Of a DNA stretch of 56,814 nucleotides, positions 18,562 to 56,654 are shown piece by piece. Made by a program: the position numbers and the translations under genes. The DNA is taken from positions 1-56,814 of the forward strand of contig JAKAAY010000011.1 in the NCBI GenBank assembly GCA_021802055.1. The letters run 5' to 3'. Source of the DNA: Thermoplasmata archaeon. GTDB lineage: Archaea; Thermoplasmatota; Thermoplasmata; Thermoplasmatales; Thermoplasmataceae. The stretch's first letter is position 1; each line of letters starts with the position of its first letter. A model generated the notes under the pieces. It was not told the DNA's origin. It ran no database searches and saw only the letters and a program-made list of their open reading frames with translations.

Positions 18562-18565
18562 ATAC
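18557..18565 (+). promoter_or_regulatory. TATA box of the coxM-coxS-coxL operon
   Basis: ATTAAATAC overlaps the stop codon of xdhC and lies 20-28 bases before ATG 18585. The oxidoreductase genes may therefore be transcribed independently of xdhC, as leaderless mRNA. Confidence 0.5.
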
Positions 18566-18584
18566 GATCTTTTACTCCTACCTT

Positions 18585-19478: not shown

Positions 19479-19480
19479 AC

Positions 19481-20002: not shown

Positions 20003-20004
20003 TC
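19995..20004 (+). promoter_or_regulatory. Full-consensus ribosome-binding site of coxL
   Basis: GGAGGTGATC is a full 10-base complement to the 3' end of archaeal 16S rRNA. It lies 5 bases before ATG 20010 and contains the stop codon of coxS. It fixes the coxL start and shows that this organism uses Shine-Dalgarno pairing for internal operon genes alongside leaderless first genes. Confidence 0.75.
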
Positions 20005-20009
20005 ATGCC

Positions 20010-22022: not shown

Positions 22023-22091
22023 TATCATCCAGGGGTCAGCCCGCTTTTACCGGCACGGGTCCTGGTACCGGGCAGCATAGTCTGTACAGGA

Positions 22092-22877: not shown

Positions 22878-23008
22878 TTCCCTGCAGAGTGCATCAGTTC
22901 ATGTTTCTATATATGCGTTGACCTGGCTGTATCACGGCAGGTGGCTGCACACGGAAATGTGCCATGTGCAGATGAGCGTATCCGGGCGGTTCATCTCACG
23001 CCATGGTT

Positions 23009-25729: not shown

Positions 25730-27231
25730 TTCTTACCCAGGTGCTGAGAGAACTCATCAGAGAATCTGCTTACTGAATCGAGGAAGACCTTTCCTGCCGC
25801 CTGGCCCAGTGCGCAAATGGATCCGTCCATCATGACCTGCGCTATCATCTTCCCCCTGTCCATATCGCCAGCTTTCACCTGTCCATTTTTCAGCCTTTGG
25901 AGCAGGTCTGAAAGTTCAAACGTGCCGTACCTGCAGGGGAAACACTTTCCACAGGATTCCCTCCTGAAAAATTCTGCAACCGCTGCCACAGTATCCACCA
26001 TGCATCTCTCCCCGGAAATCGCTATGACCGCACCTGTGCCCAATCCTGCACCTGTCTTCCTGACCTGGTCATAATCAAGCGGTGTGTCAAGCATGCTTAT
26101 GGGAAGAATTCCGCCTGAAAGGCCTCCTGGCATGAATGCCTTAAGGCTCGATGGATCGGTACCGCCATAGTTACGGATCAGCTCTCCAGCCCTTATTCCC
26201 ATGGGTAAACGGTAAACTCCAGGTTTTTTGACATCGCCGGTCAGACAGTAGCTCTTCCTGAAACTACCACCATTGGCTATTTCCGAGATAGCAACCAGTG
26301 TCTCCGCGTTATGTACAAGCGTGGGTAGATTGTAAAGACCGGTCTCCGTAGGGAATGGAGGGCGCAGCCTTGGCTCCCCTCTGTTTCCCTCGATGGCTTC
26401 CATCAGTGCAGTTTCCTCTCCGGTCACGTAAGGCCCCGGAACCAGCATGATCTCTATGGTATCCGGCAGCTTTTCCCGGGATTTCACTCCAAATTCTTCG
26501 TAGAATTCCCTCAACGCCATGCTCATGCTCATTCTGGCGTTATCATAGTCACTCCTGATCCCAATGATTACTTTCCTTATCCCGTTTGATGCCGCTGCCA
26601 GGAGGGCACCGTCCAGGACTGAATGTGGAAACAGCTCCAGAAGGCGCCTGTCCTTGAACGTCCCAGGCTCTCCTTCATGTGCGTTTACGAGAAGCATCCC
26701 TCTTTCGCTTCCGCTCTTCCGGAAAGAATCCCATTTCAGTGACACGGGGAAGCCTGCACCTCCCATCCCCTTAAGGTGAGAGCGTTCGATGACGCCCCTC
26801 AGGTCATGTATCTCTATCTGTAAATTGCTGTAACCGCCGGCGGCCATATAGGCGTCAATGGATTGCCTCTTTTCCAGAACATAGTCCGCGAGGCCCTCTT
26901 CGATCTCCTGTTCGACGCCTCCTTTGGTGGAATAGAACACATTCCCCCTCTGCACAACCGGTGCATGGTCACAGTAACCGGGGCAGGAATCCCCGGAAAG
27001 AGACGAAGCAGTATCCCTGCTCGAACCTCCGAGATAACATGGCAGTCCGCTGCACTTCCTTTCTGGTTGTATCCCCTTTTCGAAGAACGAGGTAACGGAC
27101 TGGATTGCGGAGGGCGATAACCCAAGTTTTCTGGATATCTCATACTTCCGTTCCCTGTCTGCTCTCTGGTCTGTTCCCGCGATACCGTATTCTTCCATGA
27201 TCCCCTTCTTTGGGACGACTTTCAAATCCAA
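25693..27231 (-). CDS. NuoE-NuoF fusion: diaphorase subunit of formate dehydrogenase
   Basis: This subunit should pass electrons from the formate dehydrogenase alpha subunit to NAD+ through FMN. A shortened NuoE-like domain comes first, with thioredoxin-like [2Fe-2S] ligands Cys60, Cys65, Cys83 and Cys87 (CSGLPC, CPGYC). The NuoF part has the FMN loop KGMGGAGFPVSLKW, NAHEGEPGTFKDR, GPYVTGEETALMEAIEG for NADH binding, and the [4Fe-4S] motif ESCGKCFPCRYGT with a further Cys in GSICALGQ. The family's usual VCGEE reads VTGEE here. It has 512 residues. The start is TTG 27231 or ATG 27198 (MEEYGIAG), the latter with AAGGGGATC just upstream. The fusion of the FdsG-like and FdsB-like parts into one chain is notable. 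Confidence 0.9.
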   Translation of the reverse strand: MDLKVVPKKGIMEEYGIAGTDQRADRERKYEISRKLGLSPSAIQSVTSFFEKGIQPERKCSGLPCYLGGSSRDTASSLSGDSCPGYCDHAPVVQRGNVFYSTKGGVEQEIEEGLADYVLEKRQSIDAYMAAGGYSNLQIEIHDLRGVIERSHLKGMGGAGFPVSLKWDSFRKSGSERGMLLVNAHEGEPGTFKDRRLLELFPHSVLDGALLAAASNGIRKVIIGIRSDYDNARMSMSMALREFYEEFGVKSREKLPDTIEIMLVPGPYVTGEETALMEAIEGNRGEPRLRPPFPTETGLYNLPTLVHNAETLVAISEIANGGSFRKSYCLTGDVKKPGVYRLPMGIRAGELIRNYGGTDPSSLKAFMPGGLSGGILPISMLDTPLDYDQVRKTGAGLGTGAVIAISGERCMVDTVAAVAEFFRRESCGKCFPCRYGTFELSDLLQRLKNGQVKAGDMDRGKMIAQVMMDGSICALGQAAGKVFLDSVSRFSDEFSQHLGKKCNAGTCGFGGH

Positions 27232-27657
27232 ACATCCCCCGGTTCATGATGACAGGTTCCTGGAAAGCCCCACTTATGGAGGTCAACGACAGCATCCTGC
27301 GCCTCGTCTGTAATCGGCGTGCCTGAGAAGGTCATTCTATAGTTACCAGCCATAAGCTGCTTAAGAAAGATACACCTAAAATGATTGGTCACGCAATGGA
27401 TGGGGGCTTGACTCAGGGTTCATTCCTAAAGAACCTTGGCAGACCACCTGGGATCCGTGATGGAATGTGCGTCCGTCAGCAAAGATCCGCCATGCCACAA
27501 CAACGACACGCATGCCCCGTCATGCATCTCTTCAGCGGCGGAAATCATCACACAATGGTAAGACTATCACGTAATAGTTAATTAACACTGTAGGCTTTGA
27601 CGGTCAAACCTCATGTGGACTGTGTCCCATGAACTGCAATACCGGGAGTGAGAGTAT
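27232..27657. other. Divergent control region between the two formate dehydrogenase loci
   Basis: I see no gene in these 426 bases. It must hold the promoters of the NuoEF-fdhA operon (leftward) and the second fdhA (rightward). GTTAATTAAC, a 10-base palindrome at 27577-27586, lies about 70 bases before the second fdhA and is a weak operator or TATA candidate. GGGAGTGAG at about 27643-27651 is the likely ribosome site of the rightward gene. Confidence 0.4.
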
Positions 27658-30606: not shown

Positions 30607-30972
30607 CCGCGATGTGCTGACCGTCTACAGGGATCATGGTTTCCACAATTTTTCACCCTCAACATGACATACCATCGCACGAGACGCTCACCGGAAAGGT
30701 GCGCTCAGGTCATATTTCCGGAGAATGCCAGGACGTCAGCTATTATCCAGCTCCAAATGGGAACATGAGGTTTGCCCGCGAAGGGCCTGGCGAAACGAAC
30801 ATGAAATCCAGCCCCCTCACAATATATGGCCTGCACGCCGCTAAGGAAAATCTGTGGGGCCGTACCCGGCAGCGCTGAGCTATCTTTTCAACCTGGTGTA
30901 AGGAACCCTGAAAACCCTCGGAAGCATGCGAAATGTATTCAAGCTGCAGGGGATCATTCCCGGAGGTCGGCG
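30607..30972. other. Leader region before fdhD without a recognised gene
   Basis: Short frames exist (for example 30636-30878), but the encoded residues show no domain and no membrane segment. The stretch may be the 5' leader or read-through region between fdhA and fdhD. I see no known riboswitch fold. Confidence 0.35.
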
Positions 30973-31815
30973 ATGGAAGGGACCAATAACGAATCTGGCA
31001 AGGCTGGAGTCAGCATGGATGTCGTGGTCTCTGCCGGTGGAAAACCAGTTCACAGGGTTGATTGGATAACCCCGGAGGAGCCATTGCAGCTTGTTTTGGA
31101 GCAAGGAGGAAAAAGAATGGATCTGGCAGTGATTATGCGTACTCCTCTTATGGACACTGAACTTGCTGCAGGCTTTCTTTTTACGGAAGGACTGATCGCA
31201 TCCAGGGATGAAATACAGTCCATTGAGCTGGAAGGCTCAGGGCAGGGTGAGGAGGGAAACGTCATCAGGGTTAAACTGTCAGGGGATGTCAGAAAGGATG
31301 TTGAGGAAAGAAGGTTCAGCGTCAGTTCCAGCTGCGGAATTTGCGGCAAAAGCTCCATCAACGAACTCTACGTGAGAGGTTATCCCATAATCAGGTCCAC
31401 CGGAAAGGTGGATCGATCCGTGATCATTTCACTCCCAGACCGTATGAGATCGGGGCAGAAGGTTTTCCTGAGCACTGGAGGGATTCACGCAGCTGGCCTC
31501 TTCCGTTATGACGGTTCCATGGTGGCTGTCTGCGAGGACATCGGCAGACACAACGCCGTGGACAAGATAGCAGGATTCATGCTGCTCAGCGGGCACATGA
31601 AGCGGGAGGATTATGTGCTGCAGGTAAGTGGAAGGGCCGGGTTTGAGATCGTCCAGAAGGCTGTAGCCATGGGGATACCTGTGGTATCATCAATTTCAGC
31701 CCCGTCTTCTCTAGCCATTGAGACTGCAGATGCATTCGGTATCACGCTTGCCTGCTTTGTCAGGGACGGAAAATTCAACGTTTATTCGCATGCTGAACGC
31801 CTTAACTGGGATTGA
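30973..31815 (+). CDS. fdhD: Formate dehydrogenase sulfurtransferase
   Basis: FdhD moves sulfur from a cysteine desulfurase to the bis-MGD cofactor of formate dehydrogenase, which is inactive without it. Family motifs are the ELAAGFLFTEGLI segment, the essential Cys pair in SSSCGICGKSS, and the later FLSTGGIHAAGLF and CEDIGRHNAVDKI. The start is ATG 30973 (MEGTNN), with GGAGGT five bases upstream. An open frame from 30826 has no such site. It has 280 residues, normal length. It lies downstream of the second fdhA and probably serves both formate dehydrogenases. Confidence 0.94.
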   Translation: MEGTNNESGKAGVSMDVVVSAGGKPVHRVDWITPEEPLQLVLEQGGKRMDLAVIMRTPLMDTELAAGFLFTEGLIASRDEIQSIELEGSGQGEEGNVIRVKLSGDVRKDVEERRFSVSSSCGICGKSSINELYVRGYPIIRSTGKVDRSVIISLPDRMRSGQKVFLSTGGIHAAGLFRYDGSMVAVCEDIGRHNAVDKIAGFMLLSGHMKREDYVLQVSGRAGFEIVQKAVAMGIPVVSSISAPSSLAIETADAFGITLACFVRDGKFNVYSHAERLNWD

Positions 31816-31848
31816 AGTGCCGCACGGTTACGACTCAGTCTGTGCACC

Positions 31849-32436
31849 ATGGCTGTGGGACGGGAGAACCATTTGGGGCAACTGACTGCTGTTGTCTTCG
31901 TCAAGAGAAGCGTCAGATTCCCCGGCAAGCACTCCGCGCTTGTACAAGGGACTCCCATGATTGATGTTGTGATCTCCAGGTTAAGGAAAGCGACCTGTCT
32001 GAGTGATGTTATAGTCTACTCAAAGGATCCGGATGTGCGGCCTGCCTGTTGTAACGTGCATATGGACACGACCACCGGGACCATCGCCGATTCCTTGCTC
32101 TCGGCCCTTCAAATATACGGGGACATTTTCGCCGTGGGAGGAGACATGCCATGTCTGTCCGGCAGCATAATAGATGCCATGGCAAAGTTGTTTGATGGCA
32201 CATCTGTGATACCAATCCTTGAGAACGGATGGATAGAGCCTCTCCACGCATTCTATGCATCTGATACGGCTCCCATGCTGAAGCGCAGTATCGATGATGG
32301 CAAATTCAGCCTTAGGGAATACATAGATCACATACCACACAGGTTCTTCAGGGTCTCAGGCCAGGATGTGAAGCATTTCCTCAATGTGAATAATCCCCAG
32401 GATTTGTCCACAATACCCGAAGATTGCCGGATATGA
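31849..32436 (+). CDS. mobA: MobA-like nucleotidyltransferase with unusual nucleotide loop
   Basis: This is probably the enzyme that adds GMP to molybdopterin to give the guanine dinucleotide needed by formate dehydrogenase. FAVGGDMPCLSG carries the catalytic-type GDMP motif of MobA, and IEPLHAFYA matches its later conserved segment. The glycine-rich loop near the N terminus should read LAGGxSxRMG. Here it is VVFVKRSVRFPGKHSALVQG, more like the (K)RFPGKN loop of CMP-sugar synthetases such as NeuA. It has 195 residues. It follows fdhD by 33 bases on the same strand, which supports the cofactor role. The substrate call is inferred from context. Confidence 0.75.
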   Translation: MAVGRENHLGQLTAVVFVKRSVRFPGKHSALVQGTPMIDVVISRLRKATCLSDVIVYSKDPDVRPACCNVHMDTTTGTIADSLLSALQIYGDIFAVGGDMPCLSGSIIDAMAKLFDGTSVIPILENGWIEPLHAFYASDTAPMLKRSIDDGKFSLREYIDHIPHRFFRVSGQDVKHFLNVNNPQDLSTIPEDCRI

Positions 32437-32445
32437 ACCGGTAAA

Positions 32446-33684
32446 TTAAGGGGAAACCCATTTCAGTGGTTTGACGGATATCATAGTACCTTCAGGGACT
32501 GCACGGTCGTCACCCTCACAGGTAAAGTACCCGGTGGATCCTGAAAGCCTGGCAACAGATGACGACGAACCCTGTACCGGAAAAGCTCTGATGGGATTTT
32601 TACCCCAGTCTACCCTGACGGGCACAACATTGAATTTACCGGGCGTGACCATGGTCTCCTGCGCCAGTTCCATGCGCCAGGTCATGTCTGTCTGCACGGC
32701 CCCCAGTTTTTCCATCATTACTGGAAGAAACAGTTCCCTCATGACAATGTAGGAAGATACCGGGGTCCCGGGCAAACCCAGCACGAAATGCCGACCATCC
32801 GTCATAAACATTGTCGGAGCGCCCGGTTTCATCCTGATCCCGTGAAACCCGGATGCACCTTTCAATATGCGGGAGATCGCGCCTTCCACCAGGTCACGGG
32901 TTCCGGCAGATGAACCCCCTGTGGTCACCACAACCGTATTTTCGGAAACCATATGGCCGAGCGATCCGGAAATGCCTGAGGTTTCATCCCTCGCTATGCC
33001 ATAATCAGTAACGCTGAAACTTCCAGCCTCCTGAAGCAATGCGCCCACGGCATAGGAGTTTGAATTGAAAGTCTTCCACCCCTTCTCGCTGCTTCCCGGT
33101 TCCACCAGCTCGTTTCCCGTGGCCAGGATCCCTGTACGAACCTTCCTGACCACCTTAATCCGGGCCAGGCCTTCAGAGGATAGAACCGCTATATCGCTGG
33201 AGGAGATGATCTTTCCGCTTCTGACAAGCAAACTGCCAGCTCTGTGGTAGCTGCCGGGGACATCAACGTTGCTTCCTTCTGGGAAATGGTTCTTGATGAT
33301 CACGTTGCCTGAATTTTCTGAAGTATATTCCACCGGGATCACTGTGTCAAACGGTTCTGGAATGTGACCGCCAGTTGGTACCCTGACGCATATGCCATTC
33401 CCTGAGTAGCTTCTGATCCCTTCGCCCAAGACGACCTCTCCAGAAACATGGAGGGAGACTGTGTCACCATGCCCGGTCTGGGCAATGTCCGCATGCCTGA
33501 CGGCATATCCGTCCATCGCGGATCTGGGCCACTCCGGTGAGTCATGTTGTGCATGCACATCAGTTGCATTGATTCTGCTCATTGAGGACATAACAGGCAC
33601 CATCTCCCATTCAACAGGCAGCGTAATGCCCAGGCGCAGTGTTTCTCTTGCCTCCACGATCGAAATGTTTTTACCTGACGTCAT
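32446..33684 (-). CDS. moeA: Molybdopterin molybdenumtransferase
   Basis: MoeA inserts molybdate into adenylylated molybdopterin. Motifs are SPEWPRSAMDGYAVR, ILATGNELVEPG, VVTTGGSSAGTRDLV, and MKPGAPTMF followed by VLGLPGTPVSSY. It has 412 residues, full length for the long archaeal/bacterial form. ATG 33684 is preceded by GGAGGTCAG at a good distance. It converges on the MobA-like gene with a 9-base gap and is divergent from moaE. Confidence 0.96.
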   Translation of the reverse strand: MTSGKNISIVEARETLRLGITLPVEWEMVPVMSSMSRINATDVHAQHDSPEWPRSAMDGYAVRHADIAQTGHGDTVSLHVSGEVVLGEGIRSYSGNGICVRVPTGGHIPEPFDTVIPVEYTSENSGNVIIKNHFPEGSNVDVPGSYHRAGSLLVRSGKIISSSDIAVLSSEGLARIKVVRKVRTGILATGNELVEPGSSEKGWKTFNSNSYAVGALLQEAGSFSVTDYGIARDETSGISGSLGHMVSENTVVVTTGGSSAGTRDLVEGAISRILKGASGFHGIRMKPGAPTMFMTDGRHFVLGLPGTPVSSYIVMRELFLPVMMEKLGAVQTDMTWRMELAQETMVTPGKFNVVPVRVDWGKNPIRAFPVQGSSSSVARLSGSTGYFTCEGDDRAVPEGTMISVKPLKWVSP

Positions 33685-33815
33685 TGGAACTGACCTCCTG
33701 ACATGTGAATGCTTTGTTATTGATTAATTCCGGCGGTGCATGCCTCGTGCAGCCACATGAGAAGACTCCTATCATTCCGGAGAGAATGTAATAAGCAAAT
33801 GATGAATTCATATCT

Positions 33816-34220
33816 ATGCTCATCAGGCTCCAGGAAACCCCCATAGACGTGGGAGAGGTGCATGCATTGATTTCGGGAACTGACTCCGGCGCGGAAGTGG
33901 TTTTTTCAGGCTTGGTAAGGAGGACCTCCGAATACGGGGTGATTGAAGCTCTGTTCTATGAGGCATATGCTGAGATGGCATTAAGCGTCATCACAAAAAT
34001 AGCCCATGAGGCCATGGAAAAACACAGTCTGAGAAGCGTGGCTGTCATACACAGGATTGGAAGAATGCTTCCCGGAGAGGCATCGGTTGTGGTTGGCGTG
34101 AGCTCCATGCACAGACACGATGCATTTGCAGGATGCAGCGAGATCATGGATCGTGTGAAGGCCGAGGCCCCAATATGGAAAAAGGACGTCTTTCCCGACG
34201 GTGAGAAGTGGAGAGACTAG
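33816..34220 (+). CDS. moaE: Molybdopterin synthase large subunit
   Basis: MoaE forms molybdopterin from cyclic pyranopterin monophosphate, using sulfur carried on MoaD. The conserved features are VVFSGLVRRTSEYG, LFYEAYAEMA, VIHRIGRMLPGEASVVVGVS, HRHDAFAGC and the C-terminal IWKKDVF with the catalytic Lys. It has 134 residues, normal length. A TATA-like GTAATAAG about 25 bases before the ATG fits a leaderless transcript. It ends 5 bases from the end of the convergent moaD. Confidence 0.95.
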   Translation: MLIRLQETPIDVGEVHALISGTDSGAEVVFSGLVRRTSEYGVIEALFYEAYAEMALSVITKIAHEAMEKHSLRSVAVIHRIGRMLPGEASVVVGVSSMHRHDAFAGCSEIMDRVKAEAPIWKKDVFPDGEKWRD

Positions 34221-34225
34221 CCTGC

Positions 34226-34462
34226 TCACCCGCCGCTGACCTGGGGCAGGACAGCCAGTTCATCCCCGTCGCTGACTGCATCTTCCGGCCCCGCATATTT
34301 TTCGTTGATGGCAGTGAGTATGTTTCGTTCATTGTCCATCATAGGGTGTTTTCTCCTGATGATGTCAAGAACGTCGGAGACTCTGCACCCGTCCCCTATC
34401 TCAATGGTTTCTCTTTCAGTTCCCGTCACTTCTCGGAACCTGGCAAAGTATTTCACTATCAA
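34226..34462 (-). CDS. moaD: Molybdopterin synthase small subunit (sulfur carrier)
   Basis: This is a ubiquitin-fold sulfur carrier that begins IVKYFARFREVTG and ends VLPQVSGG, with the Gly-Gly that is adenylylated by MoeB and thiocarboxylated. The start is chosen at TTG 34462 because GGAGGATT lies about 5 bases upstream. An open frame extends to 34540, but its extra residues come from the overlapping end of moaA. It has 78 residues, the typical length. It overlaps moaA by 47 bases, so the two form one operon. Confidence 0.92.
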   Translation of the reverse strand: MIVKYFARFREVTGTERETIEIGDGCRVSDVLDIIRRKHPMMDNERNILTAINEKYAGPEDAVSDGDELAVLPQVSGG

Positions 34463-35399
34463 TGGAATCCTCCTGCTTCCAGTACGGTTCCCTGGTGCCC
34501 ACGGCCTTCCTGAACATGGCATCGAGGGCACTATCTCCACGCTTATTCCGGATAACGTCTACGAAACGCGTATAGTTGTCACTCCTCATTAAACAGGGCT
34601 TGAAGTAGCCCGTGGAAGTAACCCGCATCCTGGTGCAGTTCTGGCAGAAATTGTGGTTACGCATGGGCTGGACGACCTCCACTCTGGCTGTACCCCCTGC
34701 CCTCTTGAGATAGTACTGCGGCCTGTCATGAAGAGAGTTTCTAGTGGTTTTGAAACTTTCCGAGGAGAGCTGCCTGACCATATCTTCCAGTGGATAGTGG
34801 TATTCCACGTAATCCGCTGAATGCTCCTGTTCCCTGGGCACCTCGTATTCTATGAGCTGGAGGATTACGTCTTCCGCTGCAGATATGTCCATCATCCTGT
34901 CGATCTGATCCACGTTTACCCCTTTCAGCACCACAAAATTCAGCTTTATGGGACCCAGTCCCGCCTCCTGGGCAGCCCTGATTCCGTCAATGACCTGATC
35001 CAGGGAGTCAGTGCCGGTGATATAGGAGAATTTCTCCCTGTCAACGGAATGCAGGGATATGTTTATCCTGTCGAGGCCCGCATTCTTCAGATCCATGGCA
35101 ATGGCCCTGAGTCTTGTTCCGTTGGTGGTCATGGAGATCTCCCCGTTAATACATTCTCTGGTGACCCTGACAATGTCTATTATATCACGGCGAAGGGTAG
35201 GCTCTCCCCCGGTGAACTTCACCTTCTGTATCCCGAACCGAGCTGCCATGCTGAAAAGCGCCTCAAGCTCCTCCAGACCCATGGTGGCAGAATTTATGCC
35301 GGTCCCCTCCATATGGCAGAAAAAACAGCTGAAGTTGCATACGGTGTTGAGCTGAACCCTGAGGCTGGTTACAGGTCTGCCGTATGCGTCTGAGATCAT
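34416..35399 (-). CDS. moaA: GTP 3',8-cyclase (radical SAM)
   Basis: MoaA starts cofactor synthesis by rearranging GTP with radical SAM chemistry. The radical SAM cluster is bound by Cys21, Cys25 and Cys28 (CNFSCFFCH). KVKFTGGEPTLRRD is the SAM-binding GGEP. The second [4Fe-4S] cluster, which holds the substrate, is bound by CQNCTRMRVTS and the Cys of GYFKPCLM. It has 327 residues, normal. The C-terminal GlyGly seen in bacterial MoaA is absent; the end is SDGN. It is first in the moaA-moaD unit and marks the right border of the molybdenum island. Confidence 0.96.
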   Translation of the reverse strand: MISDAYGRPVTSLRVQLNTVCNFSCFFCHMEGTGINSATMGLEELEALFSMAARFGIQKVKFTGGEPTLRRDIIDIVRVTRECINGEISMTTNGTRLRAIAMDLKNAGLDRINISLHSVDREKFSYITGTDSLDQVIDGIRAAQEAGLGPIKLNFVVLKGVNVDQIDRMMDISAAEDVILQLIEYEVPREQEHSADYVEYHYPLEDMVRQLSSESFKTTRNSLHDRPQYYLKRAGGTARVEVVQPMRNHNFCQNCTRMRVTSTGYFKPCLMRSDNYTRFVDVIRNKRGDSALDAMFRKAVGTREPYWKQEDSIDSEILCQVPRSDGN

Positions 35400-35499: not shown

Positions 35500-36702
35500 A
35501 TGAAAGCGAACAGAAATTCAATATATTATACGGTGATCCATCAAACAATGTTCAGAACTATTAAATTGAGGCTCCCCTACGATTCCTCCCTTCTTGAGAC
35601 GGGGAGGCAGTTCAGGGAAGCTTGCCAGATGGTTCTGGACTATGGTTTTGCAGAGAAGACGTATAACAAGAACAAGCTCAACAGGGCAACGTATGAAGAT
35701 GTCAGGAAGAAGATACCCGCACTGCCTTCTGCCCTGGTGCAGACGGCAAGGGATACGGCATCGGAATCATTGAAACAGACCGATCTTGGGAAGGAAATAC
35801 GCAGGAAATCCCTGACCATAAGGTATGACAGGAGAACATTCAGGTTCTATCCTGATGCCCGTACCATATCACTGACAACCGTCCATGGGAGGCTTGTGTT
35901 TCCCATTGCAAATTCTCCACTCATAGAGAAATACAGGGGAGAATATACCAATGCACAGGTTGCCGTTGATGCGAAGCAAAGAAAGATGTTCGTGATGATT
36001 CAGGTGGAGGTGGATAAGGAGATAGAAAGAAAGGTGGATGGTGAGGAAAAGGTAATAGGAATAGACAGGGGCATGAAGAATGTAGCTGTATTGTCGAATA
36101 ACAGGTTCTTCAATTCAAAGGCATTGAAAAGTGTAAAAGGAAGGTACAGATACAAAAAGAAGAAATTGCAGCACGCAGGCACTCGTTCCGCTCATCGTAA
36201 ATTAAGGGAGTTAAGCGGAAGAGAGAGACGGTTCGTGCTTGACACAAATCATGTGATATCAAAACAGATAGTGAATCTTCCTTTCAATATCTTTGCACTT
36301 GAGTGTTTGGAATCGGCAGGAATGAGGAAAAAGAAGAAAGGGAGGAGATTCAACCATGAACTCGGATCATGGTCTCCCTTCCAGCTTGAGCGATTCATCA
36401 GGTACAAGGCCGAAGATATGGGCAAGGCTGTGGTCTGTGTGAATCCAAAATATACATCACAGAAATGTTCCAGATGTGGATTCATTGACAGGAATAACCG
36501 TAAAGGATCAATATTCCACTGCAGGAATTGCAATTTCCAACTTCATGCGGATCTGAATGCCTCAAGAAACATTGAGGTACTCGGCAAGTCTGAGTACTTC
36601 AGGCTGCCGTCAACCAGCCAATCGTTGCGGTTCGATGAATCCATGCCTACGGGTATGGTGGAGACCAGCAGCAAGCCCCTTCCGTCAGGGAGGGGCAGTT
36701 GA
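35500..36702 (+). CDS. tnpB: IS200/IS605-family TnpB, RNA-guided endonuclease, intact
   Basis: This is a TnpB nuclease, the ancestor-type relative of Cas12. The RuvC triad is complete: Asp189 in GIDRGMKN, Glu268 in ALECLES and Asp351 in HADLNASRN. The zinc finger has Cys323, Cys326, Cys341 and Cys344 (CSRCG, CRNC). It has 400 residues from ATG 35500. ATG 35548 (MFRTIKLRL) fits the family start better. There is no tnpA beside it, so it cannot move by itself. The last codons overlap a hairpin that resembles the 3' end of an omega RNA (see 36673-36700). It lies directly after the molybdenum island and 24 bases before an MFS gene. Confidence 0.93.
   Translation: MKANRNSIYYTVIHQTMFRTIKLRLPYDSSLLETGRQFREACQMVLDYGFAEKTYNKNKLNRATYEDVRKKIPALPSALVQTARDTASESLKQTDLGKEIRRKSLTIRYDRRTFRFYPDARTISLTTVHGRLVFPIANSPLIEKYRGEYTNAQVAVDAKQRKMFVMIQVEVDKEIERKVDGEEKVIGIDRGMKNVAVLSNNRFFNSKALKSVKGRYRYKKKKLQHAGTRSAHRKLRELSGRERRFVLDTNHVISKQIVNLPFNIFALECLESAGMRKKKKGRRFNHELGSWSPFQLERFIRYKAEDMGKAVVCVNPKYTSQKCSRCGFIDRNNRKGSIFHCRNCNFQLHADLNASRNIEVLGKSEYFRLPSTSQSLRFDESMPTGMVETSSKPLPSGRGS
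36673..36700 (+). ncRNA. Probable omega-RNA 3' hairpin / right end of the TnpB element
   Basis: AAGCCCCTTCCGTCAGGGAG then GGGCAGTTGAC forms a strong hairpin at the very end of the tnpB frame. In known systems the guide (omega) RNA derives from the 3' end of tnpB and the element's right end, with the guide copied from the flanking DNA. By analogy the guide would begin at about 36700-36705. The position is inferred from the hairpin only. Confidence 0.45.
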
Positions 36703-49384: not shown

Positions 49385-49589
49385 CCCATGACTTGAGTCG
49401 TGGGATGAATGCGAAACCCCTAATAAGCAGGAAAGTATATTTAATCTAGTACCGCAGGGCATGCGGGATTTGAAGCCTGATAAACCATCGAAAAAGGATG
49501 GCGGGAGATGGAGTAAGACCCCCGGAACGAATGAAGGAGGCACTGTCGATGAAGCAGGAACCCCACAAGCTTTAGCTATGGGAGGATGT
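49385..49589 (+). mobile_element. MITE-like short element with both TnpB ends (copy B)
   Basis: The left hairpin CCCA-T-GAC-TTGA-GTC-G-TGGG (49385-49404) is followed by GCGAAACCCCTAATAA. From 49447 to 49589 comes the right-end region homologous to copy A, ending in a hairpin (CCCCACAAGCTTTAGCTATG then GGAGGATGTCAG). The tnpB body is missing. The result is a roughly 205-base element with both ends, the layout of a non-autonomous IS605-derived element. It lies between the aldehyde dehydrogenase and hyf operons. Confidence 0.6.
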
Positions 49590-49600
49590 CAGCGAATCTC

Positions 49601-51484
49601 TCATGGCTGGATTATGATGTAAATCATCACCGCAAAGAAAGCCAGCATGATATACATCACATAAGCCATGAGGCTGCTGTTCATGATCTTAACTCCAAGT
49701 ATCCGGGAAAAACTCACTGTTTTCCTCGCAAGGAAAATTATCACGAGCCAGAAGGCATCAAAGGTTCTTTCGGAGTATTTAGTGCCCCTGCTCTCTTCGG
49801 TGGTAAGGTAGAACCTCCTCATGGTGAGCCGGAGAGAATTGGCATAAGCGAAGGAATGCAGTTTATCCTCTTCGCCCAGTCCTCCATTCCAGTTGGTCAC
49901 GCTCCTTGTTCTGGCATTTCTGAACAGTAGCAGAGGAATACCTGCAAAGGCGAAAATAAAGAGTGCAGTGAAAAACGGAGAGATACCTCCAAAGGGTCCA
50001 TTGCTGCTGAACGAAGATATCAAAAACCCATATGGTACAACAAGTGCTCCGCCAACGAAAGCCCCTGCATTGATCCCCGTGTATTCCATTATCATTTTGC
50101 CAATTGCGTCCAGGTAAACAGTGGACAGGAGCCCAACCAGGAGAACTGATGCCCCCATGGCAAGAAGCGAAATTCTCATGTACCCCTCTTTGCCCTTCCT
50201 CGCGTGGGCTCCGCGCGAACCGAAACCGTAGATCTTTGTCATGGATATTATTGATATTCCGCCTCCGAGAGCGGCTGTCGCACCGACTATGACAGACACC
50301 AGGCTGGTCAAGAGACTGCCGAGTATAGACATCACGAAGAGAGTCTCAAGGAGCATCCATTCACCCACACCGCCGCCAAGGGGTAGCATTCCTGCCAGAG
50401 ATATGGAGGCAAGAAAGCCGCCTGCACCATAGAAGGTGGAATTGCTCCCACCCTTGTAACTCTTGATTTCGGTTGAACCGCTGCTCCGCTCCATTACACC
50501 GGCAAACATGAACAGACCTCCCTTGGACAGTGCGTGAGAAAATGCAAAAATCATGAGCCCAGCGAAGGCAAATGCGGCAATATGCATCTGCCCAAGAGAC
50601 TCCAGCACGATGATTGAACCAACAAAGATGAGCATTGCACCACTGTTCTCTATGGTGCTGTACGCAGGCAGCATCTTGACGTGTTCCGCGGAGGCAGAAT
50701 AAATGGAGCCGAAAAGCAGTGAGAATGCACCAATGCCCATGATGAGCAGACCAAAGACATTCCCCGGTTCTGATATGGTTATGAACCTCATTATGGAGTA
50801 CAGGGCCACCGTGGTCATTGCTGCACTGAAAAGAATTGAGCCATTGGAGCTTGCGTTCCCATGAGCGATGGGCAGCCACTCGGTAATCTGAAATGGCATT
50901 ACTCCCATCTTGATGAAAAAACCCATGATACCAAGGAAAAGTATGACCTGGTCAAAGGGGCCGGTGCTGAATATCATGCTTCCTGACTCGAAGTACATGC
51001 CTATTCCCATCACCATTACGAGGAGCGTGCTGAGTTCCCCGTATACGAGGAAGACGTAGGGAGGGATGTTGTTCATGCCCTTCCTGTATCCGATGAGCAG
51101 GTAACCGGAGATGGTCATACCCTCCCATCCGAAAAGGAAGAGAGGGAAAGAACCTGAGACCATTACAACCATCATGGAAAGTACCGCAAGATGGAATGAA
51201 ACGGCATTGGACCGTGAATTCCGGTCATATTCTATGGAGAAGAACGAGGTCAAGGCCCAGACTGTTGATACCACCATGAGGAATGCCGAGCTCAGTGGAT
51301 CGATCGTGAGCGCAAGATAATCTCCAGCAACCATGCGGACTGAAGTCCCCGCGAGAAGAAGATAAAGGGATGCAACAGCGATGGATCCATAGAGGAAGGA
51401 GCCGGCCCTGTATGAACTGGTTACGGAGAAGGCAGATATGAGGACCGGTACAACCGCCGCACCCAGCAGAATCGGTATTATCAT
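49601..51484 (-). CDS. hyfB: HyfB-like (NuoL/Mrp-type) proton-pumping membrane subunit
   Basis: This is an antiporter-like subunit of a Hyf/complex I-type membrane complex. From ATG 51484 it has 627 residues and about 15-16 membrane helices. The ion-path residues are in place: Glu121 in FGWEGMTISG (helix 5) and Lys192 in FIKMGVMPFQITEWLPIAHG (helix 7), with His208. The start is chosen at 51484 because its ATG overlaps the TGA of the upstream gene; the frame is open to 51616. It is the last gene of the operon. It should convert redox-driven movement into ion transport. Confidence 0.92.
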   Translation of the reverse strand: MIIPILLGAAVVPVLISAFSVTSSYRAGSFLYGSIAVASLYLLLAGTSVRMVAGDYLALTIDPLSSAFLMVVSTVWALTSFFSIEYDRNSRSNAVSFHLAVLSMMVVMVSGSFPLFLFGWEGMTISGYLLIGYRKGMNNIPPYVFLVYGELSTLLVMVMGIGMYFESGSMIFSTGPFDQVILFLGIMGFFIKMGVMPFQITEWLPIAHGNASSNGSILFSAAMTTVALYSIMRFITISEPGNVFGLLIMGIGAFSLLFGSIYSASAEHVKMLPAYSTIENSGAMLIFVGSIIVLESLGQMHIAAFAFAGLMIFAFSHALSKGGLFMFAGVMERSSGSTEIKSYKGGSNSTFYGAGGFLASISLAGMLPLGGGVGEWMLLETLFVMSILGSLLTSLVSVIVGATAALGGGISIISMTKIYGFGSRGAHARKGKEGYMRISLLAMGASVLLVGLLSTVYLDAIGKMIMEYTGINAGAFVGGALVVPYGFLISSFSSNGPFGGISPFFTALFIFAFAGIPLLLFRNARTRSVTNWNGGLGEEDKLHSFAYANSLRLTMRRFYLTTEESRGTKYSERTFDAFWLVIIFLARKTVSFSRILGVKIMNSSLMAYVMYIMLAFFAVMIYIIIQP

Positions 51485-52113
51485 GATCTGCCCTCCCTGG
51501 ATCTCTGGAGCGCATGGAGTATGGTAAACGGGTTTGGGGGGCAACCCGGGATCATAACATCCGCCTCCACCACTTCCTTTATGGACTTGCCCAGAATGCC
51601 GCCTGAAATGGCACATACCCCCACAGCGAAAACAAGTCTCGGAGAAGGGAGCGCCTCAATGGCCTTTATGAGCGGTTCCCTCATCCCCAAAGCCAGAACC
51701 CCCACCACAAGAATTGCGTCTGCATGCTTTGGAGTGGCACAGAAGGAAATTCCCAGCCTGCTGAGATCATAATACGGATTTTCCAGCGCCTTAACCTCAA
51801 GGTTGCAGGAGCCGCATGACCCCGCGTCGAAGAGATAGATGTGGAAAGACCTCCTGAATTTTCTCTCCGTTGAACGTACCACAGACGTTTTTGGGTTTCC
51901 GTCGGGAAGGAATGCAGGGGCACAGTAGCCACATGAGATGCATTTTCCCATATCCACACTGGTCCCGGAAATTGCCTCTGCAGGACAGTCTGCGTTTCCT
52001 TTGCCTGTGCTCATGGGGGTTGTGGACCATAAGGGTACTTCATCAGGTTCCCTGCCAGGGTAACGTGTGGTAAGACGCCTGTGAAGGATGCCGTAGGCGA
52101 GCCAGGATTTCAC
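51481..52113 (-). CDS. hyfI: NuoB-like small subunit fused to a half ferredoxin
   Basis: This is the electron-entry subunit of the complex. The C-terminal domain is NuoB/hydrogenase small subunit-like, with the proximal [4Fe-4S] ligands Cys100 and Cys103 (GSCGSCN), Cys167 (GVCAISGG) and Cys191 (GCPPNP). The N-terminal 70 residues hold CP (Cys43) and CISCGYC (Cys58, 61, 64), exactly the ligands of one cluster of a two-cluster ferredoxin; the rest of the HyfH-like ferredoxin is lost. It has 210 residues. It overlaps both neighbours by 3-4 bases. Confidence 0.85.
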   Translation of the reverse strand: MKSWLAYGILHRRLTTRYPGREPDEVPLWSTTPMSTGKGNADCPAEAISGTSVDMGKCISCGYCAPAFLPDGNPKTSVVRSTERKFRRSFHIYLFDAGSCGSCNLEVKALENPYYDLSRLGISFCATPKHADAILVVGVLALGMREPLIKAIEALPSPRLVFAVGVCAISGGILGKSIKEVVEADVMIPGCPPNPFTILHALQRSREGRS

Positions 52114-53333
52114 AGAACTCCCCCCAGTTCTGACATCTGAATTCCAAGCCCCTCGTACCCGAATGTGAAATCCGTCAGGAGGTTCCCGCGGATTGAGTGG
52201 GAGAAAACAGCAAGATTCTGGATCGAAGAGGGTCTTATGTATATTCTCTTGATCATGCCGTTGGTTACAGAGACCCGCATCAGGGAATCGCCTCCCGGCG
52301 TTTCTGCCCTGACAGATATTTCACCGCTAAGATCAGTTATCTTTCTGCCGCTGGCGAGCGGGATATCATGAATCATTTTTCCCGCGTTTTCGATTATGGC
52401 CGCTGATGCAAAGATTTCATCCTTCCTCACCAGAGCCCTTGAAAGTGTATCTGCACCAGAAGATACCGCAACCTTGAACCCCAGATCATCATACTCCAGG
52501 TACGAGGCTGCTTTTCTTGTGTCTGCATCAAGACCCGCTGCCCTGGCGGACGGTCCCACCATCCAGGACTTCTTGCAGGTAGCTGTTCCCTGTAACCTGT
52601 CAATGAATATCCCTGAATTTTCCAGCCTCAACCATATTTGGCTGAACTCGCTGGCAATCTGCCCGATCTCCGCGGCAATTGCACTGAAATCTGCAGCTCT
52701 TGCCAGCCCGCCGATGTGGTTTATGCCAAAGAAATACCTGTGACCAAATCTCTTTGACACGATCCTGAGCAACTTCTCCCTCAGAGCAAAGATCAGGTTA
52801 TACGCCACGTTCTGAGAAGCCCCTTCTGCAAGCCTTGCGATTACATTCAGGTGATCAGCAATCCTGGCGATCTCATTCATTATGATGCGTGCAAGTCTCA
52901 GATCATTATCCTGGTCACAATCCAGCATGGACTCCACTGCGGCACAGAACATGCCGGAATAGAATGCGCTCAAAGGGCCGCAATAGCGCTCCAGCATTAA
53001 ATTCGCCATATCCAGGGATGACCCTGAAATTTGCAACTGCCTGTCCTTGTACCGGGGTTCCGGCCTGAGCGACAGAATGCGTTCCCCATAGGTGTAAATG
53101 TTGAACCTGCATGACTCCAGGAGCCCGCCAGTAGAGGGCCCGTAGGAGAAATTGAGAACGTCAGCCCCCTCTGCTTCCTCTTCAAATATGCCTGTGCAGA
53201 CCCTGAAGTCCTCACGGTTCCTGATCTGTTCCACAGGGAAGGTTTTCCATGATGGTGTGCCAAAGCCCTGGGTTACCTCGTACATGTCTTTCTCCTGCGA
53301 GACGGCGCCTGTGATCACGTCATCATGCGGCAT
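52110..53333 (-). CDS. NuoD/HyfG-like large subunit lacking the NiFe cysteines
   Basis: This subunit is homologous to group 4 [NiFe]-hydrogenase large subunits and to NuoD. The hydrogenase L1 motif R-x-C-G-x-C-x-x-x-H is RYCGPLSAFY at residues 116-125, so the second Cys is Leu121 and the His is Tyr125. The C-terminal D-P-C-x-x-C motif is missing; the protein ends EGLGIQMSELGGVL. It cannot bind a NiFe site and is not a hydrogenase. HyfG/HycE landmarks such as NEIARIADHLN and NHIGGLARAADF are kept. It therefore fits the Ehr group or a complex I-like quinone site. It has 407 residues. ATGA overlap joins it to the HyfF-like gene. Confidence 0.88.
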   Translation of the reverse strand: MPHDDVITGAVSQEKDMYEVTQGFGTPSWKTFPVEQIRNREDFRVCTGIFEEEAEGADVLNFSYGPSTGGLLESCRFNIYTYGERILSLRPEPRYKDRQLQISGSSLDMANLMLERYCGPLSAFYSGMFCAAVESMLDCDQDNDLRLARIIMNEIARIADHLNVIARLAEGASQNVAYNLIFALREKLLRIVSKRFGHRYFFGINHIGGLARAADFSAIAAEIGQIASEFSQIWLRLENSGIFIDRLQGTATCKKSWMVGPSARAAGLDADTRKAASYLEYDDLGFKVAVSSGADTLSRALVRKDEIFASAAIIENAGKMIHDIPLASGRKITDLSGEISVRAETPGGDSLMRVSVTNGMIKRIYIRPSSIQNLAVFSHSIRGNLLTDFTFGYEGLGIQMSELGGVL

Positions 53334-54676
53334 CAGATCACCCCGTAAATTAGAAACAAGAAAGGGATCAGGAGGGTTATGGAAGACGCGGAAAGCGCCA
53401 CGGCCACCTGGGAACCCGAAGGCTCTGAAATCTTCCCTTCATTACCTGAAAACACCATTCTTGAAACATGGAAATTTATGCTGGCAAACGCGACGAGAAG
53501 CGAAGCCACCACCAGAGCAACTATTAGCAGGTAACCGCCGGCATATAACCCGGCCAGTATGAGGAACTCCCCAAGAAATGTGCCAAAGGGAGGCGCCCCG
53601 GTTACTGCAAGAGATGACATAATCAGGGCGACCGATGTATATGGCATCCTCTCCTTGAGGCCATGGATGTCAGCGATTTTCTTTGATTCGTACTTTTCAA
53701 GGATGTTGCCCGATGAGTAAAATGCGGCTCCCTTACCAAACGCATGCGTGACAAGGAGAATCATTGCCCCAGTTAGCGCTATACCCCCAATGGTGAAGCC
53801 CAGCAGGATGAGGCCCATATTCTCCATTGTGGAATATGCGAACATTCTCTTGTAGTATCGCTGGGAAGGCAGCATAAGGGCAGAGTATATTATGGTGGTA
53901 ATCCCGAAGAAGATGAAGAGATTCGTTATTGCGGGCGACGCGGTTACCTCATACACCCGGTAAAGTGCATAAATTGCAACGGGCAGCAGGACTCCCGAGA
54001 ACATGGCGCTTATCTCAGAAGGGGCTTCGCTGTGGGCATCTGGGAGCCATGTGTGCATTGGAAACAGACCTATTTTTGTCCCGTAGCCTACCAGCGCAGT
54101 TCCTGCAGCAATCGCTGTGAGTTCTGAATAGGCAACGTGACTGGATAGCAGACTGCTTATGGTAAGGGTGTGGAAATTATAATACATCACCACAACGGAG
54201 AGCAGGCTTATGGTCAACCCTGCGGAGACGATTATCACATACCTCCAGGCCACCTCTATTTTCAATGGCTCCCTTTCAATCACAAGAAGAAGAGTGCTCG
54301 AAACGGTTGTCGCTTCAATTCCAAACCACAGGAGCCCAAAGTTATTCACCGTGATTGAAAAGAACATGCTTGATGCAAATAGATCCATGAGGGACAGGTG
54401 GAGTCTCATATTCCTTGACTCTCCCATCCTGTGATGATATCCTAGACCAAATACCACTGAAAGAAGGTAAATGGAAGCAATTGCTATGATGAAAAAACGG
54501 GACAGGTAGTCCACAAGAAAATCACCAGAAAGTTCCAGCCCGGATACCAGTATATACACGGAGAGGGCGAGGCTGATGGATGCAGATATGACTGCGATCT
54601 GCCTGAATTGTTTCAAGAAGTAGCCCAGCGACAGGAAAGAAGGTACTGATATTAGCAGTAAAATTATGAAATTCAT
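53333..54676 (-). CDS. hyfF: HyfF-like (NuoN/NuoM-type) proton-pumping membrane subunit
   Basis: This is the second antiporter-like subunit, 447 residues, about 14 helices. Ion-path residues are Glu121 in WFGIEATT and Lys201 in GYGTKIGLFPMHTWLPDAH, with His208, Asp213 and His215. The MHTWLPDAHSEAPS segment is the hallmark of the family. Later, THAFGKGAAF holds another conserved His and Lys. The start ATG overlaps the hyfE stop, and its own stop overlaps the large-subunit start, so the operon is tightly coupled. Confidence 0.94.
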   Translation of the reverse strand: MNFIILLLISVPSFLSLGYFLKQFRQIAVISASISLALSVYILVSGLELSGDFLVDYLSRFFIIAIASIYLLSVVFGLGYHHRMGESRNMRLHLSLMDLFASSMFFSITVNNFGLLWFGIEATTVSSTLLLVIEREPLKIEVAWRYVIIVSAGLTISLLSVVVMYYNFHTLTISSLLSSHVAYSELTAIAAGTALVGYGTKIGLFPMHTWLPDAHSEAPSEISAMFSGVLLPVAIYALYRVYEVTASPAITNLFIFFGITTIIYSALMLPSQRYYKRMFAYSTMENMGLILLGFTIGGIALTGAMILLVTHAFGKGAAFYSSGNILEKYESKKIADIHGLKERMPYTSVALIMSSLAVTGAPPFGTFLGEFLILAGLYAGGYLLIVALVVASLLVAFASINFHVSRMVFSGNEGKISEPSGSQVAVALSASSITLLIPFLFLIYGVI

Positions 54677-55293
54677 CCCATCAGCTCCTCGATCCGCGGG
54701 TGCTCAACGTTTTCTGTCACAAGGCCGGTTCCAACGATTATGAGGGCGAGTACGTCAAGGAGGACGCTGATCTCCACGATAAATGGCAGTGGAATAATAG
54801 TCAGGCTCATGAAAATGATGCCGTTTTCCTCTTCAACATAACCGATGAAATGTGCAAAGCTGTTACGCCTTGTGGCGATGAGGAGAAGACCCTGCACAAC
54901 CATGGAAAACCCTATGGCACCAAGCGGAGCCTGTGTTATCTGAAAGAAAAGGTACCTGTACAGGAGAAATGAGAAGATCAGCACTATCACGCTATATATG
55001 CTCACGGATGCCACGCCGTGGGAAGACTCCTTGACGAACATTTTTGACTTGGGGAGTTTCAGGTCGAGAAAGTGCCGTATGAGTATACCTCTGAGAACCA
55101 CGATGAGCGCAGCAAGCACTATGAGATCCGGGGCGTCAGTGGTGACTCCGATGACAGTCGCAGTGACGGCCAGAAGGACTGACTGTGTGACGACGGTGTT
55201 AATCATGGGGCGTATATAGGAACGTGTCTGCACAACGAGGGTGGATCCAAGGATCAGTGCTCCAAGTATGGCTTCTATCTCCAGGTAGATCAT
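54673..55293 (-). CDS. hyfE: HyfE-like membrane subunit
   Basis: This 206-residue protein has about 6-7 membrane helices. It begins MIYLEIEAILGALILGSTLV and ends with a cytosolic tail (VTENVEHPRIEELMG), as HyfE proteins do. Its NuoK-like second half has EEENGIIFM with a conserved Glu within or near the membrane. It overlaps hyfC upstream and hyfF downstream by 4 bases each. Confidence 0.88.
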   Translation of the reverse strand: MIYLEIEAILGALILGSTLVVQTRSYIRPMINTVVTQSVLLAVTATVIGVTTDAPDLIVLAALIVVLRGILIRHFLDLKLPKSKMFVKESSHGVASVSIYSVIVLIFSFLLYRYLFFQITQAPLGAIGFSMVVQGLLLIATRRNSFAHFIGYVEEENGIIFMSLTIIPLPFIVEISVLLDVLALIIVGTGLVTENVEHPRIEELMG

Positions 55294-56237
55294 GCTATCC
55301 CCCCAAGAGTCAGGGTTATGACGGAGAAGATGGAAAGAGCAAATGAAATGGAGAGGAAATCCTGGATCTTGAAAAGTCGTACTTTTCCAAGGCTCTCATT
55401 CACCACCACAAGCATCGCAATGAGCACGAGCCATTTGCCAAACATTATGGGGATGTCAGCCAGGGATCCAATGAGGCCGTCCTGCATAAACCACGGGAAG
55501 GCAAATACGTTGAGGAAAACTGAGCCCAGAAGATATAGCTTGATCATCGAAGAGTACTTTATCATGAAGAGATGGGGGCCAGAGTATTCGTAAACGCGGG
55601 CCTCGTCAATCATACCCAGTTCCATATTTGAACTGCTTTCCAGGGGCAGCTGACCTGTTTCAAACAGAAGCAGCATAAAGAATGCGACCGTGGCGAACAG
55701 ATGGTAAAGACCAAGATATGCCGTTACCGATGTCGACAGTACTGCATTGGTGACATAAGGGTTATTGGTCCCTGAAATCAGCGCTACTGCGAAGAAAACC
55801 AATATAAGCGTAGGCTCAGCATACGCAGAGAACGTTGCAGAACGGCTAGCTCCTATCGCGGATATGTTGCTTCCTGAATTCAGGGCGCCTAGCACAAGCA
55901 ATACGGATGTTAGGGCGAATAGAAGGCCACCTCCAAGGAAGTCGACCGAGACAGAAAGATAATTCGGAAACGGCAAAATGACTGGAATCACGAAGGAGAT
56001 GAGGATATAGATTCCAAAAACAAAGAAGGGGACAAGGAAGAAAATTCTTGTGGAATTCGGAGGCAGAAGAAGCTCCTTCTTAAGAAACTTGGCCAGATCA
56101 TAATAGGGCTGCAATATGGGGGGGCCCCGCCTAGCCTCAAAGAGGGCCTTCGTCCTGTTGAGGATTCCGGTCACTAGGGGTGACAGGATCATTACTCCGA
56201 CTATCTGGACTATTGTCTCAACCCATAACAGCGTCAT
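55290..56237 (-). CDS. hyfC: HyfC-like (NuoH/HycD-type) membrane anchor subunit
   Basis: This subunit joins the soluble arm to the membrane arm and lines the quinone or proton chamber. The loop ARRGPPILQPYYDLAKFLKK (residues 35-54) is the family's hallmark. The acidic loop FETGQLPLESSSNMELGM then DEA matches NuoH loop 3. It has 315 residues and about 8 helices. It is the first gene of the operon; the control region upstream has a pair of direct repeats. Confidence 0.94.
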   Translation of the reverse strand: MTLLWVETIVQIVGVMILSPLVTGILNRTKALFEARRGPPILQPYYDLAKFLKKELLLPPNSTRIFFLVPFFVFGIYILISFVIPVILPFPNYLSVSVDFLGGGLLFALTSVLLVLGALNSGSNISAIGASRSATFSAYAEPTLILVFFAVALISGTNNPYVTNAVLSTSVTAYLGLYHLFATVAFFMLLLFETGQLPLESSSNMELGMIDEARVYEYSGPHLFMIKYSSMIKLYLLGSVFLNVFAFPWFMQDGLIGSLADIPIMFGKWLVLIAMLVVVNESLGKVRLFKIQDFLSISFALSIFSVITLTLGGIA

Positions 56238-56590
56238 ACTCTCACTATGAAGCAGACGTCATCAGCCTTTGAGGCAGTTATGGGTGGACGTCATCACCGG
56301 GAATCTGCATTTTTAAGGATTACTTAAACCTCTCCATCACGTCGTAAAATCATTGTCACAGACTTAGAGGAACTGGCGCAACACCGTGATACCGAATATC
56401 CGGAATTCTCATGGTGTTTCCACCCTCCATTGATTTCAAGATCCGCAAACACGAGGGCCCGGTTACCACGATATGATGTTGGGGCAGTCAACCAGGTGCT
56501 GTATAGAACTGTCTCTATCCATGCACCACGGTCTCCGGCATGAGTCTGTGTCGCTGCTGTACCAGACGCTTACGATCAGTCGCAAGGAAG
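56238..56590. promoter_or_regulatory. Control region of the hyf-like operon
   Basis: On the minus strand, TATA-like boxes lie at about 56313-56320 (CCTTAAAA) and 56325-56333 (TTTAAG). Between them and the hyfC ATG are two copies of GACGTCATCA (56255-56264 and 56287-56296), 32 bases apart, or about three helical turns. They lie in the same face-on register across the probable transcription start. I see no gene from 56340 to 56590. Confidence 0.5.
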
Positions 56591-56610
56591 CCCACCTCTT
56601 CAGGGGTGGG
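56591..56610 (+). repeat. TTCA-loop hairpin (TnpB left end, copy 4)
   Basis: CCCACCTC-TTCA-GGGGTGGG is an 8-bp hairpin (one T-G pair) with the TTCA loop. AAG precedes it and AGGAATTGCG follows. It is 45 bases before the tnpB start at 56655, which shows that this hairpin type belongs to the left ends of TnpB elements. Confidence 0.7.
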
Positions 56611-56654
56611 AGGAATTGCGACACCATTATACAATGAATTGTCGTATCAATATT

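Follow-up and report, generated by a model that had tools for sequence, protein, structure and literature searches.

The energy-converting hydrogenase-related (Ehr) complexes are a recognized kind of relative of the group 4 [NiFe] hydrogenases. Bacterial Ehr complexes, described from Riflemargulisbacteria (PMC6349859) and Sulfobacillus (PMC4378227), are group 4-like, lack the NiFe motifs and carry a membrane arm of the HyfB/C/E type; their function has been described as unknown (PMC4378227). Among archaea, 'putative group 4 hydrogenase' clusters were reported in Ferroplasma Fer1, E-plasma and G-plasma, with both Ni-binding motifs missing and another function suggested (Yelton 2013, PMC3750248). 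Ehr complexes also figure, as relatives, in discussions of the path leading from hydrogenase to complex I. Here, we describe an Ehr operon of six genes on contig JAKAAY010000011.1 of a Thermoplasmata archaeon of the family Thermoplasmataceae. The stretch analysed, referred to below as the window, is the whole of this 56 814 nt contig (C35 of the genome), and the genome is 1.48 Mb in size with a completeness of 96%.

The window operon is of the same kind as the Thermoplasmatales cluster reported in 2013, and the E-plasma and Ferroplasma Fer1 loci were recovered among its relatives (L102 and L126); compared with the loci of that study, the window clade has its own variant of the L1 motif, RYCGPL. 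That the Ni motifs are missing in these archaea has been on record since 2013. The 2013 study contains no subunit anatomy, half-ferredoxin fusion or test of linkage to formate dehydrogenase (FDH). New here are the fusion of a half-ferredoxin to the small subunit, an invariant glutamate in the large subunit, the isolated setting of the operon and the FDH test.

A six-gene operon with a Hyf-type membrane arm

Six open reading frames (ORFs) on the minus strand occupy positions 49601-56237 of the window in the order hyfC-hyfE-hyfF-hyfG-hyfI-hyfB, with successive overlaps of 1-4 bases:

55290-56237, minus strand: HyfC/NuoH-like membrane anchor, 315 aa (NADHdh PF00146, E=4.4e-29; aligned with NuoH, HyfC and HycD)
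54673-55293, minus strand: HyfE-like membrane subunit, 206 aa (NF008556 hydrogenase 4 membrane subunit, E=8.4e-8; same slot in related loci)
53333-54676, minus strand: HyfF-like antiporter-like subunit, 447 aa (Proton_antipo_M; NF005042 hydrogenase 4 subunit F, 474.8 bits, curated cut-off 437)
52110-53333, minus strand: HyfG/HycE/NuoD-like large subunit, 407 aa (Complex1_49kDa)
51481-52113, minus strand: HyfI/HycG/NuoB-like small subunit, 210 aa (Oxidored_q6 PF01058, E=2.4e-20)
49601-51484, minus strand: HyfB-like antiporter-like subunit, ~627 aa with a C-terminal extension (Proton_antipo_M; NF005046 hydrogenase 4 subunit B, 435.5 bits, just missing the curated cut-off of 460)

The ORF listed for hyfB starts at 51616; an ATG at 51484 overlaps the hyfI stop codon by 4 bases and matches the arrangement in the relatives. 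A preliminary description of this DNA, made from the letters and their ORFs, had seen a Hyf-type membrane complex of six overlapping genes and had named it as Ehr. All six genes were recovered and placed in the Pfam and NCBIfam families given above, and the combination of a group 4-like large subunit without NiFe cysteines and a Hyf-type membrane arm indicates that the predicted complex is a member of the Ehr kind.

The gene set is close to that of the bacterial Ehr complexes, and six core subunits are held in common with the Escherichia coli formate hydrogenlyase and hydrogenase-4 (HycB-G, HyfA-J). The E. coli complexes also provide the best structure matches for the small subunit and, for the large subunit, the best query-normalised TM-score among the matches listed. 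In contrast to them, the window complex lacks the NiFe ligands, the catalytic arginine, HycB/HyfA, FdhF and a full two-cluster HycF.

The residues associated with ion pumping are retained in the membrane arm. In HyfF, Glu (transmembrane helix, TMH, 5), Lys (TMH7), His, Lys and Glu (TMH12) are invariant (21/21), as are Glu (TMH5), Lys (TMH7) and another His and Lys in HyfB (21/21). The ion pumping proposed in the preliminary description is thus plausible, given the invariant Glu/Lys pairs of both antiporter-like subunits. HyfC has four glutamates conserved among relatives (E141, E193, E206 and E217), and its TMH5-6 loop is reshaped, with ESxxxxE[LM]GMI replacing DxAEAEQE.

Palindromic stretches resembling the ends of IS200/IS605 elements lie on either side of the operon, at 49400-49600 and 56570-56625, the latter stretch with a 21 nt inverted repeat at 56579-56622. 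A TnpB/OrfB gene is found elsewhere in the window (35500-36702). The operon may be flanked by the remains of IS200/IS605-like elements.

The large subunit has lost the NiFe site

The preliminary description had read the L1 motif as RYCGPLSAFY, with nickel ligands replaced, and had found the C-terminal CxxC to be gone, such that no NiFe site could form. Our alignments led to the same conclusion. The L1 region reads ERYCGPLSAFY, and C241, C244 and H248 of HycE correspond to C118, L121 and Y125; the four NiFe cysteines were not recovered in the 52110-53333 product. Because the protein has no cysteine beyond residue 254, a C-terminal CxxC is ruled out in every alignment register, a conclusion drawn solely from the missing cysteines, as the tail can be set against DPCxxC in registers that differ by a few residues. 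As positive controls, two group 4 NiFe hydrogenases of the same class (L169 and L170) were included in the same alignment, and they show both RVCGIC and DPCxxC. The AlphaFold model of the large subunit (pLDDT 90.6; all models were of single chains) gave its best query-normalised TM-score among the matches listed, 0.80, with HycE (7z0s_E).

Loss of the NiFe ligands extends throughout the Ehr clade (79 rows). At the position of the first ligand, 62 of the 79 rows have Asn and only four have Cys, namely those of the window protein and its three closest relatives. Cys118 was considered as a relic NiFe ligand and rejected, since the tree places Cys in these four proteins only; a later, derived change is most likely. 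The equivalent of HycE R478, discussed as the hydrogenase active-site arginine (PMC9474812), is Gly347 in the window protein and is replaced in 77 of the 79 rows. The maturation gene hypD (PF01924), the one hyp gene searched for, was found neither in the genome itself nor in any of the 37 family genomes examined; nine further genomes of the order carry it, as do the control genomes. Lacking both RxCGxC...H and DPCxxC, the predicted complex is not a group 4 [NiFe] hydrogenase or formate hydrogenlyase, and H2 metabolism should not be assumed for these archaea from annotations such as 'formate hydrogenlyase' or 'hydrogenase-4'.

One feature of the hydrogenase pocket is retained in full. Glu73 aligns exactly with the residue that transfers protons in group 4 hydrogenases (HycE E193, MbhL E21), and its equivalent is invariant (79/79 rows). 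None of the quinone head-group residues of complex I (Nqo4 H38, Y87 and D139) is present in the large subunit. The same genome encodes a separate, NuoF-less complex I (G000:C20), which shares a homologous core and possibly a similar donor with the Ehr complex. Unlike Ehr, this complex I keeps H38/Y87-type residues in NuoD, the adjacent CC motif in NuoB, NuoC and an intact two-cluster NuoI. By these features the predicted Ehr complex is not a complex I, and the presence of a separate complex I makes it a second machine rather than a substitute.

A half-ferredoxin domain is fused to the small subunit

A feature that the preliminary description did not note lies at the N-terminus of the small subunit, where 85 residues form a half-ferredoxin domain (C43-P ... 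C58xxC61xxC64) fused to a NuoB-type domain. In hhalign comparisons, the N-terminal domain matched NuoI/HyfH/HycF from the TxxYP segment onward (97.1%, E=5.8e-11), and HyfA/HycB matched more poorly. Cys IV of motif 1 and Cys I-III of motif 2 are retained, equivalent to one of the two [4Fe-4S] sites, and we take this site to be the ligand set of complex I cluster N6b, the neighbour of N2. The NuoB-type domain carries all four cysteines of the proximal cluster (C100, C103, C167 and C191), with the hydrogenase spacing CxxC. C43, C58, C61, C64, C100, C103 and C167 are invariant in 45 of 45 aligned relatives, and C191 is present in at least 90%. The AlphaFold model (pLDDT 92) had HycG as its best match. 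No earlier description of the fusion was found in the literature searched, which consisted mostly of non-subscription papers.

Pyrococcus MBS (formerly Mbx) is likewise NiFe-less and without the complex I quinone residues. It has a three-Cys proximal cluster and no loop glutamate (PMC7684303), whereas the window complex keeps the glutamate, the CxxC and a Hyf-type membrane arm. With CGSC (100-103), C167 and C191 all present in place of the shortened three-Cys cluster, the predicted complex departs from the MBS pattern at its proximal cluster.

The input arm of these complexes can be laid out as a series. The Thermoplasmata NiFe hydrogenases L169 and L170 have a separate two-cluster ferredoxin subunit nearby; in the outgroup Ehr L168 a complete two-cluster ferredoxin is fused to the small subunit (nearly complete in L167); the half domain follows; and in Micrarchaeota the half-ferredoxin entry cluster is lost altogether. 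The DHVE2/Aciduliprofundum-type Ehr complexes (L149-L151, L153 and L163-L166) differ in the pattern of cysteines at the N-terminus of the small subunit. L167 and L168, from other Thermoplasmata families, encode a NiFe-less group 4-like complex with the motifs RVSGDTCVAN and KSFNLSYSG, in which the catalytic arginine is kept.

The operon recurs among acidophilic archaea

The same operon was found at 20 related loci drawn from whole genomes. An independent, alignment-based scan (a scan with a single-protein query gave none) returned 71 loci, of which ~60 had the full C-E-F-G-I-B order and most of the remainder ended at contig edges. This recurrence excludes a chance arrangement. Carriers include E-plasma, Ferroplasma acidarmanus, Acidiplasma aeolicum, a Cuniculiplasma bin (L095) and Ca. 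Sysuiplasma, as well as Metallosphaera (L128 and L135), one Marsarchaeota bin and two Micrarchaeota bins; the gene order in Metallosphaera and Marsarchaeota is F-G-I-B-C. In the tree, the Sulfolobales, Marsarchaeota and Micrarchaeota rows are nested among Thermoplasmatales. This suggests transfer of the operon between acidophile phyla, and no more than suggests it, because the tree was built quickly (LG+G4, SH-aLRT) and some of its branches are long. The clade constitutes a clean six-gene system, apart from FDH and hydrogenases, in the culturable Ferroplasma, Acidiplasma, Cuniculiplasma and Metallosphaera. Its electron-entry domain is defined and the residues to mutate are few, so that the question of what Ehr complexes reduce can be tested directly.

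Genes recurring beside the operon were considered as partners and rejected, as each occurs in only 2-5 related loci and is housekeeping-like. They are annotated as KaiC-like ATPase, MR/MLE enzyme, aconitase, deaminase, amino acid permease, UbiD, ABC transporter, S17e, radical SAM and Usp. Some genomes hold two Ehr copies from different clades; at one second copy (L043 6301-12918, genome G004), the large-subunit gene is split into ORFs of 280 and 89 aa.

A putative ferredoxin-fed ion pump

The function that we favour for the six-subunit Ehr complex, at slightly less than an even chance, is that of a ferredoxin-fed ion pump which reduces an acceptor other than protons, most likely menaquinone, and is not a hydrogenase. 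In this scheme, a soluble low-potential one-electron carrier, most likely ferredoxin reduced by 2-oxoacid:ferredoxin oxidoreductases, would deliver electrons to the single [4Fe-4S] site of the small-subunit half-ferredoxin, from which they would pass to the proximal (N2-like) [4Fe-4S] site. The acceptor would be reduced in the former NiFe pocket, with protons supplied by the loop residue Glu73, and the energy would be relayed through the HyfC chain of membrane glutamates to HyfF and HyfB, which would pump ions, probably H+. Composition, NiFe loss, hypD absence, cluster cysteines, half-ferredoxin, glutamate and pump residues can be read from sequence, and to these we add an inferred donor, acceptor, direction, ion and stoichiometry.

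Two features favour ferredoxin as the donor: four genes of the genome encode POR-type 2-oxoacid:ferredoxin oxidoreductases, and the entry module resembles a ferredoxin and is flavin-free. The preference for menaquinone as the acceptor comes from futalosine-pathway matches in the genome and from the proton donor kept in the pocket; protonation there would be expected, as the Glu73 equivalent is invariant in this clade, unlike in MBS.

Several observations weigh against this proposal. With Nqo4 H38, Y87 and D139 all missing, quinone binding would need a different construction. No PF02621 or menB-like matches were found in the DHVE2-type Ehr genomes, and four Ehr-positive genomes of the family itself (G008, G015, G026 and G031) have no PF02621. 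More generally, the quinone-pathway profiles (PF02621 and menB) fail to separate Ehr-positive from Ehr-negative genomes, and so cannot decide the acceptor. The loss of the entry cluster in Micrarchaeota also counts against the scheme, as does the genomic context: no conserved neighbour gene was found in the related loci, and no donor is betrayed by it. Finally, no biochemistry for an archaeal six-subunit Ehr complex was found in the literature searched.

It is possible, if rather doubtful, that these operons represent a distinct, mainly thermoacidophile class of archaeal complex I-type machine, in which a minimal electron wire of two clusters (half-ferredoxin plus N2) leads to a proton-coupled NiFe-free pocket and electrons pass from ferredoxin to menaquinone or, under a large pH gradient, in reverse. 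If this is so, the class would stand functionally between hydrogenase and complex I and would differ from MBS in having kept the proton-donating glutamate.

An unlikely alternative is that the complex is a ferredoxin-driven, ion-pumping reductase of sulfane sulfur (polysulfide/S0) like Pyrococcus MBS, also a NiFe-less group 4 relative without H38 and Y87. Thermoacidophiles inhabit sulfur-rich settings and Thermoplasma respires S0, which would suit such an activity. However, the MBS mechanism needs the three-Cys proximal cluster produced by a three-residue shortening, whereas CxxC and the two other cysteines are kept here, and the loop glutamate absent from MBS is invariant. Moreover, the operon is present in Metallosphaera, which are aerobes.

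We consider it less likely still that the complex runs in reverse, with menaquinol reducing ferredoxin in an uphill reaction driven by the large pH gradient of an acidophile. Machines of the complex I type can run in both directions, a separate complex I is present in the genome, and close homologues occur in the acidophile lineages Thermoplasmatales, Metallosphaera, Marsarchaeota and Micrarchaeota; yet the genome already has ferredoxin-reducing enzymes.

The preliminary description had noted two FDHs in the window and raised formate or ferredoxin as a driver of ion pumping without H2 production; of the two, ferredoxin is the one preferred here. Both FDH genes are real:

27658-30606: formate dehydrogenase
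23009-25729: formate dehydrogenase (FDH1), with its own NuoF-like subunit at 25693-27231

A direct feed of the complex by one of these enzymes has a precedent, as such a partnership has been proposed for Riflemargulisbacteria and Saganbacteria, in which nuoE/nuoF-like genes also lie beside fdhA (PMC6349859). The window genes are arranged differently. They lie ~19 kb from the operon, beside FdhD, MobA, MoeA and MoaA, and FDH genes within such a molybdopterin cluster have been described for Thermoplasmatales (PMC3197636). The NuoF-like subunit is the sole NuoF in the genome, and since FDH1 has this subunit of its own, it is probably NAD(P)-linked. FDH was linked to the operon in none of the 20 related loci; in complete relatives it lies tens to hundreds of kb away or is absent. 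No HycB/HyfA-type electron-transfer subunit accompanies the operon here or in the related loci, and the HycF-like domain is halved, so that the docking partners of formate hydrogenlyase are missing.

Co-occurrence across 61 genomes was at the level of chance. FDH was present in 33 of 39 Ehr-positive and 19 of 22 Ehr-negative genomes (Fisher p = 1.0, a guide only because the genomes are not independent), with Ehr called at E<1e-30 and FDH at the curated cut-off or from a long broken match. Ehr with no FDH alpha subunit above the cut-off occurs in six genomes whose completeness is at least 93%, and FDH without Ehr in eight whose completeness is at least 90%. Cuniculiplasma has been reported to lack FDH and the molybdenum cofactor, yet the Cuniculiplasma bin carries the operon. 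From the distance, the unrelated neighbours and the absent co-occurrence, we conclude that FDH is not an obligate partner of Ehr; the suggested link with formate is not borne out, and a direct formate feed appears very improbable.

Weaker again is a redox-dead remnant acting only as an Mrp-like ion antiporter, an idea prompted by the lost NiFe site and the halved input module and rendered most improbable by the strong conservation of cluster cysteines, pocket glutamate and six-gene order across divergent genomes.

Other genes in the window

The two FDH genes are part of a molybdenum-enzyme island at 17731-35399 that also includes XdhC, a carbon monoxide dehydrogenase/xanthine dehydrogenase-type enzyme, FdhD, MobA, MoeA and MoaA; one FDH has the NuoF-like diaphorase subunit and the other a NuoG-like N-terminus. 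Positions 5217-10055 encode a 1612 aa protein with a pro-kumamolisin activation domain, likely to be a large secreted acid protease. A protein with a Ras-like small GTPase domain (PF00071, E=2.4e-25), here in an archaeal genome, is encoded at 3251-4111.

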